DNA of 64,000 nt, taken from NCBI GenBank assembly GCA_039801085.1, contig JBDRTY010000001.1:757538-821537 (forward strand), given 5' to 3'. The first letter of the stretch is position 1; each line of letters opens with the position of its first letter. The DNA comes from a candidate division WOR-3 bacterium. GTDB lineage: Bacteria; Hydrothermota; Tepidihabitantia; Tepidihabitantales; Tepidihabitantaceae. The notes beneath the pieces are model-generated. The model saw only the letters and a list, made by a program, of their open reading frames with translations, was not told the DNA's origin and ran no database searches. The position numbers and the translations under genes are program-made. Shown in pieces: positions 5,684-41,288 of this stretch.

Positions 5684-7022
5684 TGATATCTCAATTTACA
5701 CATTGGACGCACCATCAGTGCAATACAGTTCTTTCATTGTTAACGACAGTGGAGCGATTTTCAATCGGAAACTTGATCGCGGCGAAACCGTAGATCTCAT
5801 TTTATTATTGAGGAATGCCGGTTCTCGAGTGGGGTCTTTCTGTGGGCAGCTCCAAACAGATGATCCCTATATTGATATTATCGATAATATTGGGACCTTT
5901 GACTCTGCTGGGCCCGGTGAGACAACTTTATCACGATGGGATTGGTTTCGTATCAGGGCGCGCTCCGATGTTCCAGTTGAAACAAAACTGAGGTGTGAAT
6001 TGGTTATTTCGGGATCTCAATATCAAGATACAATTGAAATACCTTTAATTGCTGGCGATTCGATGAATCTCCCTGTTGGCCCAGATAATTATGGTTATAT
6101 GGTTTATGACTGGACCGATTCGTGTTATGAACAAATTCCCCGATTTCAATGGAAAGAAGTAAGGGGTATAGGGCAGCGGGTTGTAATTGGTGATGATGAA
6201 ACTGCCTGGTTCGAATTGCCGTCATCTTTTGGCTTCTGGCGTTACTATAGTATCCCTTATCGCTTTATTTCCATCTGCAGTAATGGCTGGATCGCTGCCG
6301 ATACAACAAGGCGATGTGATTTTACAAATGTTCAACTTCCCTATACAGGGGCACCTCCCAATATTGTGGCTTTTCTCTGGGATGATTTAGCACCGACAAG
6401 ATATGGTTACATCTGGTATTATTTTGATACAACTCAATCGAGAATCATCGTCGAATTCGATTCGATTCCATACTTCGGTTCACCTGACAAATGGGAGACA
6501 GTGCAGATCCAGATTTATGACACAAGTTATCTGGGAGCAAATCATAATAATCCCATCGGGCTTTTTTTCCGCACAGTTAACGATTACACTTCGGTAACAG
6601 TAGGGCTGCAAAACCAAGACGGAACTTCGGGGTTAACTTATTATTGGAACGGTAATTATCCTCGAACCGCAGCTACTCTTTCACCTTTGCATGCCCTTTG
6701 GGTCCAGTCTGATGTATGTATCAGTGTTGAAGAATCGTGTTCCCGATCTTCAGCTTTCACGTCTTCCGGCACAAGTATCGTCAGTCGCAAGAGAGGTGTA
6801 CATCTGGGTGATTTGCCCAATGGGGTTAGATCAGTGGAAATTTTCGGACTAGATGGCAGACAGGTCTGGCGGTCTATTGTTCCATTTTTCTCCCGAAGAG
6901 AAATATTCTGGGACGGAACGGACCTTAATTATCACAAGGTGGAATCCGGAGTGTATTACCTGTTGGTAAGAAGCAGTAATGGCGTCTTTCGCCGTAAATT
7001 AATTCTTTTGAGTGAAAATTAA
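5652..7022 (+). CDS. Secreted protein, C-terminal fragment with T9SS/FlgD-like sorting domain
   Basis: This is the in-frame continuation of the 5064-5651 fragment; the first possible independent start is TTG at 5703, which has no ribosome site. After the end of the carbohydrate-binding-like domain there is an Ig-like region (about 5703-6060) with KLDRGETVDLILLLRNAG. Then comes a domain starting YGYMVYDWTDSCYE and containing ISICSNGWIAADT and IVAFLWDDL, a pattern common in secreted proteins of FCB-like bacteria. The last 75 residues (VEIFGLDGRQVW, ESGVYYLLVR, RRKLILL) form a C-terminal sorting-domain signature. The product probably functions only if the upstream TGA is bypassed. Confidence 0.65.
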   Translation, partial: GIYPSAKVFADDISIYTLDAPSVQYSSFIVNDSGAIFNRKLDRGETVDLILLLRNAGSRVGSFCGQLQTDDPYIDIIDNIGTFDSAGPGETTLSRWDWFRIRARSDVPVETKLRCELVISGSQYQDTIEIPLIAGDSMNLPVGPDNYGYMVYDWTDSCYEQIPRFQWKEVRGIGQRVVIGDDETAWFELPSSFGFWRYYSIPYRFISICSNGWIAADTTRRCDFTNVQLPYTGAPPNIVAFLWDDLAPTRYGYIWYYFDTTQSRIIVEFDSIPYFGSPDKWETVQIQIYDTSYLGANHNNPIGLFFRTVNDYTSVTVGLQNQDGTSGLTYYWNGNYPRTAATLSPLHALWVQSDVCISVEESCSRSSAFTSSGTSIVSRKRGVHLGDLPNGVRSVEIFGLDGRQVWRSIVPFFSRREIFWDGTDLNYHKVESGVYYLLVRSSNGVFRRKLILLSEN

Positions 7023-34502: not shown

Positions 34503-37307
34503 TTACATTATCACAACTTTGTATATAAAATTACGATTATGTTTGTCTTCGATGTGAAAAAAATAGATTCCGGGTGCTAGATTATCAACACTGATTGAGT
34601 TGATTTTACCAGTAACATCGAGTTTGGACATAAGAGAGCCGCTTATGCTGTAAATACAAATTGTAGATGCATGTCTTAAAGAGAAAGAAACTTTATTTCG
34701 CTGTCTTATAAGAAAAGTTCCTATAGTAGAGGCTCTTTCTGGTTGGTATTCAGGGTCATGGTATGTCAATTCTCGGATACCAATAAGGTTCCAATCTGTA
34801 ATTTTGCAGAAAATATCCCAACCCTGATGACGCCGGTTATCAGTCCATGTAAAGATAATGAATTCACTATTGGCGATGACACTTTGACCGACAGTCCAAT
34901 GGGAATTATTGGGAAATAGATTGGGTTCGTTGATTTTCTGATTATGGCCAATTCTTGTGCCATCTGAACGAAACCTTTGGCAGAATATTTGAGGATTACT
35001 AATATTTTCGATTTCTCCATTAAACATTACTGCCAAACGGCCTGTTTCATCAAATGCACAGCTCGGTGAGTAGCAATCCGAGTACCCAGGAGGATTGTCA
35101 TTAACTCTTTCATTACCGCCTATCAGATTGGAAAGCGAGTCTAGAAGTTGTAAATAAATGTCATACGAGCCGTTACGCTTGTCCTCCCATGCTATTGCAA
35201 TATTCCGATTGTCATCAATTGCACACGTGGGATATGATTGAAGAACATTTTGGCCGTCCAGATTTACTCTTTTGTTCGGTCCGATCTTTTCGCCGCGAGG
35301 TGTAAATAACTGGCAATAGATATCGGGGTCGTTGATGCCGTTCCTGTAATCCATCCAACTAACAACCCAATACCCAGCAGAATTCATCGCTACGCTAGCA
35401 AAAACTTCTGGGATACTGTCGGGTGCGTCACTAACACGAAATTCGGGTCCAGCGGGATTACCATTTTCATCGTATAACCGGGCGTAAATTTTAGAAAAAG
35501 TTTGTCGATAATCCATCCATACAATAACCGCGCGGTTATATGTGTCCATAGCGCAGTATGGATACCATTGAGATGCGCCAATGTTACCTTCGTTAACAAG
35601 AAAATTACCGCCTATTTTACTGCCGTCGTCGTTAAGTATTTGGGCATAGATATCCCCTCCTTGTCGGGAATCATGCCAGCAGACGATAAAACGTTTGCTT
35701 CCGCCTGCACTGCTGGGATAAAAATGCGAGCCGGTTCCAATTGGATCATCGTTGACACGAAAATTTTGTGAAAGGGGGATACCAAACCTGTTGATGACAG
35801 CAGCATAAATATCACAATTCCCATTTCGTTCATCTTCCCAAGCTATTAATATTCCTCGATTAAACCGTTCTTGCCCGATGGAGGAAACTCGTTGGTGAGA
35901 ACTGTTGGAGTCATCATTTACTCGAAAATTGGTTCCTATTTTACTGCCACCTCTTGTAATTCTCTGACAGTATATATCAAAGTTTCCATTACGCGCATCA
36001 GCCCAGGCAATGTAGTAACCACCATCAGATACAGCAATTACTGTGGGAGATGTCTGTGAGCTGTTGCTAATATCGTCATTAATTTTAAATTCACCACCGA
36101 TACGAATTCCAACAGAATTGAATATTTGCGCGTAGATATCATCATTCCCATTTCTTTTATCAGACCAGACAACGATAAACTCGCCGTAACGGTTGATTGC
36201 TACATCTCCTAGTAGTTGATCAGCATCCCCCGCATCACAGTTAACGCGAAAATTAGTATCTACTGGTGTTCCAGATGTATCATAAATTTGGGCATAGACA
36301 TCCCACTGGTTTCTTCTGCGGTCATTCCAAGTAACAACAAAATTTCCAGCAGGTCCGACAGCAATTCTAGGAGACCATTGAATACTTTCCTGAGCTGTTA
36401 CCCGGAAGTTGTTGTTGATGCGTGCGCCATTACAATTAAAACGCTGGCCATAAATATTCCAGTTTCCGTCTCTTCCGTCCATCCAGACAACAACAAATCT
36501 GTTAGAGTCGTCACTGCCGATATCAGGTTCATACTGGTTGCCATAATTCAATGGGTCGTCGTTGATTCTGAAATCATTTCCCATGAGTGAACCATCGGGG
36601 TTAAGAAACCTGCCATAAATATCTCCGGTAATTCCATTACGACGGTCGTCCCACACGATTAGGCTGATGCCATTTGGCACAAAAGAAACAGCGGAGATGC
36701 TTTGGTCCCCTGCGGCTGTTGAATCATTAATCCGGAAATTATCCCCTAATCGATTGCCGTTGCGATCAAATCGCTGGGCAAAGATGTCGGAGTTGCCCAG
36801 TTGGCGACGGTCTTCCCATGTAAATATGAAGTTACCGTTAGGGCTCCCGGCCACTGCAGGATCTCCTTGCCAGTTCATAGTGATATCAGTATTTACTCGT
36901 TGGTTACATCCCAAGGCAACTCCTGAAGAATCATATAATTGATACCAGATATCGGCATCGCCATCCCGAAACTCGTACCAACATATTACAAAGTTACTAA
37001 TGAAGTTTGAAGCAATCTTGGGTGTTCTTTGAGAACACCCGCCCCTTATGTCGTCGTTAAGTATGAAATCATTTTTTATTACACTGTCTGTGTCAAAATT
37101 ATTTGTGATAGTTCGGGGGCTTCTTTTAATAAATTGACCTGTATGTTCTTGGGTATATAGTTGCTGATTAAGATATGATATGATTGTTCGATGACGGGTC
37201 GAATCATGTGCTATGGTCGATTGTCGGGATTGAAGATATTCTGCACTTAAACTGTTAATTGATATTAAAACAGCAGTTAGACTTGTGAATGGTATCAATG
37301 CTATCAT
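34503..37307 (-). CDS. Secreted 14-repeat propeller-like protein with sorting-type C-terminus
   Basis: 934 residues: an N-terminal signal-like segment (about 1-22), then about fourteen repeats of 55-60 residues (about 95-845). Each repeat holds a variant of W-x-D-x-R-N-G-x-x-D-I-Y-x-Q followed by G-x-x-x-G-x-x-F-R-V-N-D-D. The regular W-D-R-N-G blades suggest one or two beta-propellers. The last 70 residues (RHASTICIYSISGSLMSKLD, LAPGIYFFHIED, YKVVIM) look like a T9SS/FlgD-type sorting domain. Its start overlaps the M6 protease stop by 4 nt, so the two are probably co-expressed. Ligand and function are unknown. Confidence 0.75.
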   Translation of the reverse strand: MIALIPFTSLTAVLISINSLSAEYLQSRQSTIAHDSTRHRTIISYLNQQLYTQEHTGQFIKRSPRTITNNFDTDSVIKNDFILNDDIRGGCSQRTPKIASNFISNFVICWYEFRDGDADIWYQLYDSSGVALGCNQRVNTDITMNWQGDPAVAGSPNGNFIFTWEDRRQLGNSDIFAQRFDRNGNRLGDNFRINDSTAAGDQSISAVSFVPNGISLIVWDDRRNGITGDIYGRFLNPDGSLMGNDFRINDDPLNYGNQYEPDIGSDDSNRFVVVWMDGRDGNWNIYGQRFNCNGARINNNFRVTAQESIQWSPRIAVGPAGNFVVTWNDRRRNQWDVYAQIYDTSGTPVDTNFRVNCDAGDADQLLGDVAINRYGEFIVVWSDKRNGNDDIYAQIFNSVGIRIGGEFKINDDISNSSQTSPTVIAVSDGGYYIAWADARNGNFDIYCQRITRGGSKIGTNFRVNDDSNSSHQRVSSIGQERFNRGILIAWEDERNGNCDIYAAVINRFGIPLSQNFRVNDDPIGTGSHFYPSSAGGSKRFIVCWHDSRQGGDIYAQILNDDGSKIGGNFLVNEGNIGASQWYPYCAMDTYNRAVIVWMDYRQTFSKIYARLYDENGNPAGPEFRVSDAPDSIPEVFASVAMNSAGYWVVSWMDYRNGINDPDIYCQLFTPRGEKIGPNKRVNLDGQNVLQSYPTCAIDDNRNIAIAWEDKRNGSYDIYLQLLDSLSNLIGGNERVNDNPPGYSDCYSPSCAFDETGRLAVMFNGEIENISNPQIFCQRFRSDGTRIGHNQKINEPNLFPNNSHWTVGQSVIANSEFIIFTWTDNRRHQGWDIFCKITDWNLIGIRELTYHDPEYQPERASTIGTFLIRQRNKVSFSLRHASTICIYSISGSLMSKLDVTGKINSISVDNLAPGIYFFHIEDKHNRNFIYKVVIM

Positions 37308-40300
37308 CGGACAATTGCCAGTTTAGCGAAGCAAATTTGCCGTCGATTTTCAGTGTTGACTTCAAGCTTTACGACATAGATTCCAGGCGCAAGGTTTTTA
37401 ATATTGAGCCATAATTCATTGTCAACAAAAGGGTTCGTCGGGGTGGCGATTTCCTTAATTACAGGTTCGCCGTTCATGTCTAAAACCGTGAATTGTGCAG
37501 GCGAAGTATTGTGATTCAATCTGAATCTTATGCAGACAGCATTGTTAGCTGGATTCGGATAAAGATAGAATTGACTTATCAATCGACTAGAGTCTGCATT
37601 TGGAAAATACGCAGGTGGATGTGTCAGTCCGGTATGACAGGGATCGTGATAGGCGCAACTCCAGTATTCCTTAAAATCAGAGTTAAGCAGGCTCCAGATA
37701 TAGAATATGCCGCTGTCTGACCCAGCAGCGATTTCCGGTTTGCCATCATTGTTGATGTCTGCATAAAGAGGAGTAGCACTTACAGATGCTGTGGTCATTA
37801 AGGGAAAAAGGTCGAGAAGTGTGCCATCTTTTCCGTTAAACCCAAGAATGCCATGCGCTGGCGAGCCGATGATAATATCTGGTACATTGTCATTATTTAA
37901 CTCGATAATAATGGGCGAGGAATGAAATTCAAATGGCTTCTCGTAGGTAACTATCCAGTTGCCAACAAGTTCTTGGACAGAAAACGTAGACTCGCGACGG
38001 AAAGGAAAGTTCGTAACTAACGTGGCATTGTAGTTAAAAGCAAAAATTTTATTGCGTGCGGCGCAAATAATATCAAGATAGCCATCGTTGTTCATATCTG
38101 CTACTGCCAATGTACCGGTAAAAGGATGTTCTATCAATTCTTGGGATTGATAAATTATAATTCCATTCTGGTTGATTATGTATAATCGATAATCATGTTC
38201 CCCACCAGCAACTACCGCAATTTCATTTTCGCCGTCGCGATTGTAATCTGCCACAACCGGTTGGGCATATGCATAGAACGGGGAATGACCGAGAGTGATA
38301 GGAAACCCTGGGGCAATTGTTCCATTTTGATTTAAAAACCAAACACGGTGATCTGCTGTAAGAACGACGATTCTGGGGTTTTCTGTATCGGTTATTGCCG
38401 CTGGCGCTCTGATTTCTGTACCCAAGCGGACGGGAAAACCTGGCAGTAATTCTCCGGTAGAGGAGACTGCATATATATTGCCATCGGTTGATCCGATTAT
38501 AACATCTTTATATCCATCGTGGTTTAGATCAGCAAGAACTGGTGCTGCTATAATGCGGTCTGATGTTCTGAATGTAGTTTTTAAAAGTCCGGTCATGGTA
38601 TATATTCTAATTCTCCCATCTGTACAGCCAGCCACTATTTCCAGTCCTGACTCAGGTGCTACATCGCCTATCGCTAAATCAGCTGCTATTTGAGATCCTG
38701 TATTTGCAAACGCACCGTTTGGGAAACGGAAACCTTCACCATTATAGCGCCATGCGAATATTTGACCTGCGCTGTCGGCAGTAACAACCTCCAATGTTCC
38801 ATCACAATCTAAATCCACGGCATAGGCCGATTTCAACGGGCTGTTTCTTTGCAAATCCTTGGGAAAGTTCTCGTAATAAAGATCCCAATTAACTTTAATT
38901 GTTATTAGCGTGTCCTTTAAGGAAGGGAGAGTGTCTCTTTCTCCGTATAATTCTACAGAAATAAAACTTTTGCCGGCGTAGGCATCAGAGTTTGGTGTCG
39001 TATAGGCATTAAAGCGGTCGTTATAACCCTGTTTAGAAAAAGGATCAAACTTGTAGCCATATACTTCATATTGATAATTATAAGTCAACCAGTATGGAAC
39101 ATCGAAATCCTGAATACCATCCGCCTCTTCGAGATCTACACCCTTATGCGCTGGGTCAATATTGATAGCATTATAAGGACCATAATCAGCGATAACTTTT
39201 TCATCTATGTGCCAAATAAGGATTCCTGAACCGGGTAAAAAGAAGTCATACTCGTTTGATTCAACCCCAATAACTACACCATCTTCAACATCAACAATGA
39301 TAGTATCCAGTTTGCGGATATCGGTCTGACGATTTTCAATTAAAAAGTACTCTTGTTGGTTTATCGATATTTTAATAATTTTCGGATAGATGCTGTCAGG
39401 GCGACTGGTATATAGACTGGTATCTATCATGCCTGAATAAACTCGAATTGATTCTGTCGGTGAAGAAATAACTTTAGGTGTGATAAAACCTAGAGCAACT
39501 CGGTGATAAGCATCAAGGGAAGCAGGTATTATCCCCGGGGGAGCTCCAGCACTGTAATCGCCTACCCAACCGCCATACCCCATAAGGCTCCAAGCACCTA
39601 CTCCCATTGTCACGCCTGTTACATCATATAAATCATAAGCCCCAAGAAGATGTGCAAATTCATGAGCCAATGTACCAGCCAAACCCACCATTCCTGCGAG
39701 ATTAATTTCTCCTCTTTCGGTGAGTGTATCTTGTCGCATCATTTCCGGCAATACGGTTGCCTGTTCAATACGCGTTTGGCCTTCATCAACTAAAATATAG
39801 GGTACACCTAAATAGGCTTCAATTGCTCCCGGAGGTATTTCACCGGCAAGCAGATCATACGGACTGTCTCGCCTACCATCAGCTGCATAATCTGATTGAA
39901 GGCCACTACCAGCGTGAAAGATAATGAATTCATCATAATCGTGGAAATGAATAGCTGGATCAAGGTCGGCAACCTTAAAAGCATCGTGCATCAGTCGAAC
40001 CAGCCCGTACTCAATGCCTTCATATGAAACGGTATCACCATAAAACTGCATCTCTCTTGGTAATTGGTAACATTCTTTTTCTCCAGAAGGCATAACAGTA
40101 TATTCAATAAATAATTTTCCTTGCGACTGAGCCAGATAATAGTTCCGCAGACCTTCCATCAATCTTTCAAAGTAGCGTTTAAAATGAGGAGGGTCATAAA
40201 AAAGACCTGAATCAGGAGAAAGGAAGCCGAATGTGTCCATTTTGCCGTTGCCGGTAGTCAATGGAGTAGTGTCTTCAACAAATTCTACTCTAAGACAGAG

Positions 40301-40558
40301 TACACGCACAGTATCAGTTGCGCCAGAACGTAGTTTGTTAATTCGAGCCATGTCTTTGCGGGTTGGGTTAAATCGAAAGCGTTGAAAAGGCTCAGTCTCG
40401 TGTTGCCAAAAGTTCACTGAAGGAATAAGTCTTTTAGTAGTCTCAATATTCCAGATGGATCTTTCGGGTTTAGAATTACGAATTAACCGCATGTGTTCTC
40501 CCAAGGCAAGAGAAAATACAGAAATTAATATCAGAAGAGACAATTTTAAATTTTTCAT
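37304..40558 (-). CDS. Secreted M6-family metalloprotease with FG-GAP repeats and sorting domain
   Basis: ATG 40558 is chosen: an AGAGG site precedes it, a signal peptide follows (LKLSLLILISVFSLALG), and any upstream extension would translate through tRNA-Ser. The M6 (immune-inhibitor-A-like) peptidase domain (about 75-480) has the zinc motif HEFAHLLGAYDLYD near residue 300 and the following SLMGYGGWVGDY. FG-GAP/VCBS-type repeats (about 580-960) read SAYAVDLDCDGTLEVVTADS, PVLADLNHDGYKDVIIGS and so on. A T9SS-type C-terminus (about 1000-1084) has FYLYPNPANNAVCIRF and LAPGIYVVKLEV. It is probably an extracellular protease. Confidence 0.85.
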   Translation of the reverse strand: MKNLKLSLLILISVFSLALGEHMRLIRNSKPERSIWNIETTKRLIPSVNFWQHETEPFQRFRFNPTRKDMARINKLRSGATDTVRVLCLRVEFVEDTTPLTTGNGKMDTFGFLSPDSGLFYDPPHFKRYFERLMEGLRNYYLAQSQGKLFIEYTVMPSGEKECYQLPREMQFYGDTVSYEGIEYGLVRLMHDAFKVADLDPAIHFHDYDEFIIFHAGSGLQSDYAADGRRDSPYDLLAGEIPPGAIEAYLGVPYILVDEGQTRIEQATVLPEMMRQDTLTERGEINLAGMVGLAGTLAHEFAHLLGAYDLYDVTGVTMGVGAWSLMGYGGWVGDYSAGAPPGIIPASLDAYHRVALGFITPKVISSPTESIRVYSGMIDTSLYTSRPDSIYPKIIKISINQQEYFLIENRQTDIRKLDTIIVDVEDGVVIGVESNEYDFFLPGSGILIWHIDEKVIADYGPYNAINIDPAHKGVDLEEADGIQDFDVPYWLTYNYQYEVYGYKFDPFSKQGYNDRFNAYTTPNSDAYAGKSFISVELYGERDTLPSLKDTLITIKVNWDLYYENFPKDLQRNSPLKSAYAVDLDCDGTLEVVTADSAGQIFAWRYNGEGFRFPNGAFANTGSQIAADLAIGDVAPESGLEIVAGCTDGRIRIYTMTGLLKTTFRTSDRIIAAPVLADLNHDGYKDVIIGSTDGNIYAVSSTGELLPGFPVRLGTEIRAPAAITDTENPRIVVLTADHRVWFLNQNGTIAPGFPITLGHSPFYAYAQPVVADYNRDGENEIAVVAGGEHDYRLYIINQNGIIIYQSQELIEHPFTGTLAVADMNNDGYLDIICAARNKIFAFNYNATLVTNFPFRRESTFSVQELVGNWIVTYEKPFEFHSSPIIIELNNDNVPDIIIGSPAHGILGFNGKDGTLLDLFPLMTTASVSATPLYADINNDGKPEIAAGSDSGIFYIWSLLNSDFKEYWSCAYHDPCHTGLTHPPAYFPNADSSRLISQFYLYPNPANNAVCIRFRLNHNTSPAQFTVLDMNGEPVIKEIATPTNPFVDNELWLNIKNLAPGIYVVKLEVNTENRRQICFAKLAIVR

Positions 40559-40584: not shown

Positions 40585-40673
40585 CGGAGAGAGAGGGATT
40601 CGAACCCCCGATACCCTGTAAAGGGTATACGTGATTTCGAGTCACGCGCCTTCGTCCACTCGGCCATCTCTCC
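40585..40673 (-). tRNA. tRNA-Ser(CGA)
   Basis: An 89-nt cloverleaf on the minus strand: acceptor GGAGAGA/TCTCTCC, D arm GCCGAGTGGACGAAGGC, anticodon stem CGTGA/TCACG with loop CTCGAAA (anticodon CGA, reading UCG), a long variable arm (TACCC/GGGTA) as in type II tRNAs, and T loop TTCGAAT. CCA is not encoded. It begins 4 nt after the tadA stop and ends 26 nt before the protease start, so it seems embedded in an mRNA and freed by processing. Confidence 0.95.
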
Positions 40674-40677
40674 TTAT

Positions 40678-41154
40678 TCACCTTATTTTACGTTTTTTTT
40701 GAAAGAAGTTTTTTAGTAATCTGGCTGCTTCGTCGGCTAATATACCCCCGGTAATTTCAAAACAGTGGTTGAATCGGGAATTTTTAATTAAATTATACCT
40801 TGAACCCAAGCAGCCAAATTTTTCGTCTTGTGTGCCGTATACTACTCTTTTGACCCTTGAAAGAAGAAGGGCTCCAGTACACATTAAACAGGGTTCTACC
40901 GTAACATAAGCCGTGGTATTGAGTAAACGCCAATTTTCTAAAGATCGTGCCGCTGCAGTAATGGCAAGAATTTCTGCGTGTGCAGTTGGGTCTTTAAGCG
41001 ATTCGATCTGATTATGCCCCCTTCCTATTATTGTACCGTTAAGTACTATTATACAGCCAACAGGAACTTCATTTTCTTCAGCGGCACGGTGCGCTTCATG
41101 GAGTGCTATTCTCATCCAATATTCGTCATCAACATTAACTCTATTTTCTTTCAC
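40678..41154 (-). CDS. tadA: tRNA-specific adenosine deaminase TadA
   Basis: Deaminates A34 of tRNA-Arg(ACG) to inosine. GTG 41154 gives MKENRVNVDDEYWMRIALHEA, close to the usual N-terminus; longer starts would run into tRNA-Arg. Zinc and catalytic motifs are complete: TAHAEILAI (His, Glu) and VEPCLMCTGALLLSRV (two Cys), with GRGHNQIE and FGCLGSRYNL of the substrate pocket. 158 residues is the normal size. The gene lies 22 nt downstream of tRNA-Arg(ACG), its substrate, and 4 nt upstream of tRNA-Ser, probably in one transcript. Confidence 0.95.
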   Translation of the reverse strand: MKENRVNVDDEYWMRIALHEAHRAAEENEVPVGCIIVLNGTIIGRGHNQIESLKDPTAHAEILAITAAARSLENWRLLNTTAYVTVEPCLMCTGALLLSRVKRVVYGTQDEKFGCLGSRYNLIKNSRFNHCFEITGGILADEAARLLKNFFQKKRKIR

Positions 41155-41176
41155 TTCTTTTAACTTATGTATTCCA

Positions 41177-41250
41177 TGCGCCCGGCGCGATTCGAACGCG
41201 CAACCTACGGATTCGTAGTCCGGCACTCTATCCAGTTGAGCTACGGGCGC
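41177..41250 (-). tRNA. tRNA-Arg(ACG)
   Basis: A 74-nt cloverleaf on the minus strand: acceptor GCGCCCG/CGGGCGC, D arm GCTC/GAGT with loop AACTGGATA, anticodon loop CTACGAA (anticodon ACG, A34 to be deaminated), variable loop AGGTT, T stem GCGCG/CGCGC with loop TTCGAAT. The first anticodon-stem pair (27-43) is a C-U mismatch. CCA is not encoded. tadA starts 22 nt downstream. Confidence 0.96.
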
Positions 41251-41260
41251 ATCTTTTCTA

Positions 41261-41288
41261 ATTTTAAGTCCTAATATCCAAAGGTCAA
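41261..41288 (-). promoter_or_regulatory. Predicted promoter of the tRNA-Arg/tadA operon
   Basis: On the minus strand TTGACC at 41288-41283, 16-nt spacer, TAAAAT at 41266-41261. Transcription would begin about 4 nt before the mature tRNA-Arg 5' end at 41250. It lies between the holB stop (41294) and the tRNA, so this unit is independent of the ugd-ftsEX-holB genes. Confidence 0.65.

Follow-up and report, generated by a model that had tools for sequence, protein, structure and literature searches.

The 64-kb window, that is the whole stretch of WOR-3 DNA analysed here, carries a compact set of genes on its minus strand: tRNA-Arg(ACG), tadA, tRNA-Ser(CGA) and a gene for an M6-type metalloprotease, preceded by a putative promoter (Table 1). 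The best named match to the window is a genus-mate, MAG SKW181 (93% identical). ARAGORN and Rfam were concordant on both tRNAs, which are the sole two RNA family matches in the window, and both programs gave a complete tRNA-Arg cloverleaf with the anticodon ACG in the loop CTACGAA. In the predicted fold of the joint transcript both tRNAs also form their acceptor stems and T arms. The promoter motif lies just 3′ of the stop codon of a holB-like gene, and the protease ORF starts 26 nt past tRNA-Ser. The succession given in a preliminary description of this locus (promoter, tRNA-Arg, 22 nt, tadA, 4 nt, tRNA-Ser) thus stands, with ARAGORN, Rfam, protein profile and motifs in agreement. Since tRNA-Arg(ACG) and tRNA-Ser(CGA) each occur only once among the 46 tRNA genes of the genome, the probability that tadA came to lie between these two by chance is negligible. 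ARAGORN additionally reported a tRNA-Sec (TCA) in the same genome (L411, G000:C2:365664-365953).

Table 1. Features of the tadA unit, with positions in the window
Feature	Position	Strand	Basis
Predicted sigma-70-type promoter, TTGACC-16-TAAAAT	41261..41288	-	Motif match and conservation in relatives
tRNA-Arg(ACG), predicted TadA substrate, single copy, CCA not encoded	41177..41250	-	ARAGORN and Rfam, 64.4 bits
Leader of 22 nt, tRNA-Arg to tadA GTG	41155..41176	-	Sequence, comparison with nearest relative
tadA, tRNA adenosine(34) deaminase, 158 aa, GTG start	40678..41154	-	NCBIfam profile, motifs
Spacer of 4 nt, tadA TGA to tRNA-Ser	40674..40677	-	Sequence
tRNA-Ser(CGA), single copy, CCA not encoded	40585..40673	-	ARAGORN and Rfam, 57.7 bits
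M6-family-like secreted metalloprotease, predicted last member of the unit	37304..40558	-	HEFAH motif, type IX secretion sorting tail

The tadA product scored 183.3 bits against the NCBIfam TadA profile NF008113 (cut-off 150) over residues 7-156. Both zinc-site motifs are intact in the translation, HAE in TAHAEI and PCxxC in EPCLMC, and the solved E. coli TadA (1z3a) aligns with it end to end (E=8.7e-44, residues 6-156). By family cut-off and motifs the protein is TadA, and it is predicted to deaminate A34 of tRNA-Arg(ACG). A second TadA-like deaminase, encoded at G000:C1:601568-602002 (L412) and also present in relatives, scored 89.6 bits, below the TadA cut-off. As to the start of tadA, the leader of the nearest relative (TadA 92% identical) differs by a 1-nt indel between tRNA-Arg and tadA, upstream of the same GTG, and this one-base difference makes an in-frame extension of tadA into tRNA-Arg unlikely. 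No Shine-Dalgarno-like tetramer was found in the tadA leader of 34 tightly spaced WOR-3 loci, the window included. Such a tetramer precedes the first start codon in only 9 of 43 long ORFs of the window; this genome group seems to use these sequences little, so that their absence from the leader is not diagnostic. Self-editing of the tadA mRNA at YTACGAA was rejected, the motif being found in only 3 of 101 tadA genes and absent from the window gene.

In the window alone, promoter-type matches were in no excess over chance (4 found, 4.9 expected). Within the 70 nt before tRNA-Arg, a promoter score of at least 9/12 was reached in 77% of 65 WOR-3 loci and of at least 10/12 in 66%, against 17% and 2% in shuffled sequences and 9% and 1% in mid-tadA controls. 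The usual WOR-3 form consists of TTGAC, a spacer of 16-17 nt and a TAnAAT -10 element 8-21 nt before tRNA-Arg. For the 70 nt that precede tightly spaced WOR-3 tRNA-Ser genes the same two thresholds were reached in 8% and 0%, and with no enrichment at this place a separate promoter for tRNA-Ser is unsupported. Several WOR-3 families have gaps of 100-450 nt, with room for separate signals; in tight loci tadA starts 5-22 nt past tRNA-Arg. An alternative is that tRNA-Arg, tadA and tRNA-Ser are independent units with promoters of their own, which have only the look of an operon. Weak promoter-like matches in the region, present at chance level, could be claimed for it, but we hold it to be very improbable: with such leaders, and with gaps of at most 4 nt from the tadA stop to tRNA-Ser, room for a promoter is left only within a tRNA or a coding sequence, and the enrichment seen before tRNA-Arg is missing before tight tRNA-Ser genes. 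A promoter before the first gene and none between the genes is the pattern of a mixed tRNA-mRNA operon, here recognized from sequence evidence. Co-transcription of tRNA-Arg, tadA and tRNA-Ser is well supported by this pattern, and the single transcript predicted in the preliminary description agrees with both the conserved tRNA-Arg promoter and gaps too short for internal promoters.

We then consider the borders of the unit. The holB-like gene upstream is common to members of the genus only. Downstream, 42 WOR-3 loci from 11 families have an M6-type metalloprotease gene in the same orientation (43 hits were listed, one of which lies upstream of the unit and was left out), and none of the 36 loci lacking tRNA-Ser has one. 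With a conserved promoter, a changing upstream gene and a kept same-strand protease, the unit is best read as promoter–tRNA-Arg–tadA–tRNA-Ser–protease, and the protease gene is predicted to belong to it.

Matches to tadA were obtained in 112 of 147 WOR-3 genomes, mostly draft metagenome assemblies, at least 3 of these matches being to the paralogue only, and 101 loci were analysed. Of the 101 tadA loci, 65 have tRNA-Arg(ACG) on the same strand no more than 500 nt upstream and 64 have tRNA-Ser(CGA) downstream; both are present in 53 and neither in 25. Both tRNAs flank tadA in 13 of 32 families. Arg only was found in f18 and f25-f27, Ser only in f7, f31 and f33, and neither in f8, f17, f19, f22-f24, f32, f34, f36 and f37; in f13 and f29 Ser is kept and the Arg side is cut off or replaced. 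As a control, a tRNA within about 500 nt of ftsE was found in 0 of 30 loci. Chance adjacency is ruled out by this control together with conservation in 13 WOR-3 families and in other phyla, and the spread over families and phyla likewise rules out an arrangement limited to the genus. On the TadA tree the Arg neighbour changes 9 times and the Ser neighbour 6 times, compared with means of 28 and 30 for shuffled labels; so few changes indicate that the arrangement was inherited, in a count that treats losses and separate assemblies alike. Gene order around tadA is thus kept in relatives, as would be expected from the linkage first described in the window, and a general absence from relatives was not seen.

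Some loci depart from this order. tRNA-Lys(CTT) stands directly before tadA in f28 and f29 (L053, L066), in f28 behind tRNA-Arg(ACG), and is an insertion into, or a replacement within, the unit. In class-mates devoid of both tadA and tRNA-Arg(ACG), which might have lost the entire unit in one deletion, synteny breaks beside the site, and the contig of one of them (G091) starts inside tRNA-Ser. In G088 a 111 bp direct repeat, 86% identical (L413:5874-5984 and 6760-6870), flanks tadA-tRNA-Ser, and it is at this repeat that synteny with the G086 neighbour (93% identical protein) is lost. Finally, a MAG from another WOR-3 family (G097) carries an ftsE whose protein is 100% identical to that of the window (G097:C38:4389-5093, L371) besides its own, 54% identical copy; the former probably represents a contaminating contig of that public genome.

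The arrangement extends beyond WOR-3. For each of the other phyla the sample was the 30 best matches to the window TadA, not random genes. Among these, Arg(ACG) and Ser adjoin tadA in 22 and 24 loci of Omnitrophota (the latter mostly Ser(GCT)), 13 and 20 of Nitrospirota, 11 and 26 of the Bacillota lineage (the phylum of Clostridium sp. Cult3) and 4 and 20 of Actinomycetota, respectively; Bacteroidota are mostly without it (3 and 0). The order Ser(TGA)-Ser(GCT)-Arg(ACG)-Arg(CCT)-tadA-Ser(CGA)-Ser(GGA) was found in many Bacillota loci; a similar cluster occurs in a Poribacteria genome, and Arg(ACG)-tadA-Ser(CGA)-Ser(GGA) in an Atribacteria (Atribacterota) genome. Since the arrangement or fuller clusters occur in several phyla, this looks like an old bacterial tRNA-Ser/Arg neighbourhood around tadA, of which WOR-3 would keep a trimmed core. 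No earlier report of tRNA-Arg–tadA linkage was found in the open-licence literature. The serV-argVYZQ operon of E. coli similarly joins tRNA-Ser and tRNA-Arg(ACG), and TadA editing there depends on the tRNA-Arg2 level, but it is without tadA and has four tRNA-Arg copies instead of one (PMC13170351). This operon could be a remnant of the neighbourhood that lacks tadA.

Both partners of the enzyme-substrate pair tend to be present or absent together. Codon reading by tRNA-Arg(ACG) requires inosine 34; TadA acts on essentially a single tRNA, and tRNA-Ser is not among its substrates. A sequence pattern search found tRNA-Arg(ACG) at most once per WOR-3 genome. Across the 147 genomes, which are not independent and in which some absences are assembly gaps, 100 have both tadA and tRNA-Arg(ACG), 35 neither, 3 the tRNA only and 9 tadA only (one tRNA missed by the pattern was added from ARAGORN, and the three genomes with the paralogue only were counted as tadA-negative). 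In the three WOR-3 genomes with tRNA-Arg(GCG), tadA and tRNA-Arg(ACG) are both absent. The enzyme-to-substrate ratio matters, since TadA edits both mRNAs and the tRNA less when tRNA-Arg2 is raised in E. coli (PMC13170351).

Coupling is not the sole way to explain the linkage. tRNA-Ser, although unused by TadA, is conserved beside tadA no less than tRNA-Arg(ACG), especially in Bacillota and Actinomycetota, and an inherited tRNA cluster can therefore account for the linkage without regulation. tadA may thus have chanced to sit in an ancestral tRNA-Ser/tRNA-Arg cluster, followed by descent and compaction with no regulatory coupling, a possibility that we take seriously while giving it somewhat less than an even chance. 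The fuller clusters of Bacillota and Poribacteria, in which tadA is surrounded by more than one tRNA-Ser and tRNA-Arg gene, speak for it, as do the families that retain one tRNA only and a spacing that ranges from 5 to about 450 nt; it fits less easily with a linkage that outlasts phylum-level divergence despite a changed upstream neighbourhood, or with the strong co-occurrence of tRNA-Arg(ACG) with tadA. As regards regulation, the initial proposal that enzyme and substrate supply are coupled thus stays a hypothesis, for the equally conserved, non-substrate tRNA-Ser fits an inherited cluster; regulatory coupling of TadA to tRNA-Arg(ACG) is something that we infer.

The 3′ border of tadA is of particular interest. 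In the window the tadA stop precedes tRNA-Ser by 4 nt, and the overlap of selB/selC type, with the stop inside the tRNA, does not apply here. Of the 64 WOR-3 loci with tRNA-Ser, 17 (7 families) have the first in-frame tadA stop within tRNA-Ser, a state that changes at least 8 times on the TadA tree. In every locus of f12 and f30 the stop is the TGA at tRNA-Ser positions 12-14, and tRNA-Ser encodes the final residues of TadA (RRDG where translated); the other WOR-3 families with overlap have the stop at position 13, 21-22, 30-31 or 45. We observed that the UGA of positions 12-14 ends tadA in L067, L078, L080, L082, L086, L101, L112 and L114, where the final TadA residues are encoded by the acceptor stem and D arm of tRNA-Ser, and also in L199 (Alicyclobacillus). 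Overlap is not confined to WOR-3: it was also seen in Alicyclobacillus tolerans (at position 12) and other Bacillota, in two Omnitrophota, and in one Atribacteria and one actinobacterial genome.

With the stop inside tRNA-Ser, cleavage by RNase P would strip the tadA mRNA of its stop codon and spoil the message. As this cleavage and translation of the tadA end share nucleotides, each transcript might give either TadA or tRNA-Ser, and tRNA maturation would keep TadA low. The overlaps in WOR-3 and in other phyla are consistent with such a switch, and like logic has been proposed for selC nested in selB (PMC8124441). We nevertheless regard it as rather unlikely: the window stop would survive cleavage, translation could come before processing, and the overlap was gained and lost repeatedly, as expected if it is merely tolerated.

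Taken together, we consider it likely that the locus is a mixed tRNA-mRNA unit, tRNA-Arg(ACG)–tadA–tRNA-Ser(CGA)–(M6-type protease), a shortened form of the old neighbourhood with one promoter directly before tRNA-Arg, in which tRNA excision sets the tadA ends and the supplies of enzyme and substrate are tied. From the anatomy, conservation, promoter, single copies and co-occurrence seen in the genomes we infer the joint transcript, its processing and a benefit of coupling. The primary transcript would contain two cloverleaves with tadA in between; RNase P and 3′ nucleases would excise the tRNAs and free a tadA mRNA with a leader of about 20 nt and a stop 4 nt from the cut. The suggestion made for the window, that the tadA mRNA ends would arise by tRNA processing, is supported by the tight leaders of 5-22 nt and by the predicted independent folding of both tRNAs. 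Because tRNA-Arg(ACG) depends on inosine 34 and TadA is essentially a single-substrate enzyme, a shared transcript would tie TadA supply to that of tRNA-Arg(ACG), and both would be inherited and lost jointly.

Release of an mRNA from a polycistronic precursor by tRNA excision is known from mitochondrial tRNA punctuation and from the E. coli tRNA-tufB operon; unlike these, the present case would join, in a single bacterial unit, an enzyme that modifies tRNA and the very tRNA on which it acts. In the selB/selC (tRNA-Sec) pair, processing has been proposed to result in a non-stop mRNA, so that protein and tRNA are alternative products (Mukai 2021, PMC8124441). There too the gene of a tRNA-acting protein and a tRNA gene adjoin or overlap, including partial overlaps with the stop inside the tRNA (PMC8124441). 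The overlapping tRNA is then the protein's own partner, whereas in the WOR-3 unit the substrate tRNA is upstream and non-overlapping, and the tRNA that overlaps, in relatives only, is tRNA-Ser. Similarly, a stable-RNA gene adjoins tadA in yaaJ (tadA)-scr-dnaX of Bacillus subtilis, but the genes past yaaJ have their own promoters, and the excerpted account makes no mention of a substrate tRNA-Arg directly upstream (PMC10454642).

A more ambitious reading, which we put forward as quite unlikely, would make the unit a self-balancing wobble-inosine module: a single transcript would bear the sole tRNA-Arg(ACG) together with its editor's message, and excision of the tRNAs on either side would trim the tadA mRNA to a near-leaderless and often stop-less form, thereby capping TadA per substrate and limiting off-target mRNA editing, a control of the ratio in cis across phyla. 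In E. coli, off-target mRNA editing by TadA depends on the amount of tRNA-Arg2 (PMC13170351). On the question of how bacteria set the ratio of TadA to its substrate, the conserved, predicted transcript and the recurrent stop in the tRNA provide a concrete cis-acting candidate, which cultured bacteria such as Alicyclobacillus, with the stop-in-tRNA overlap, make testable. Ser and Arg tRNAs around tadA would moreover constitute a rarely noted, old gene neighbourhood.
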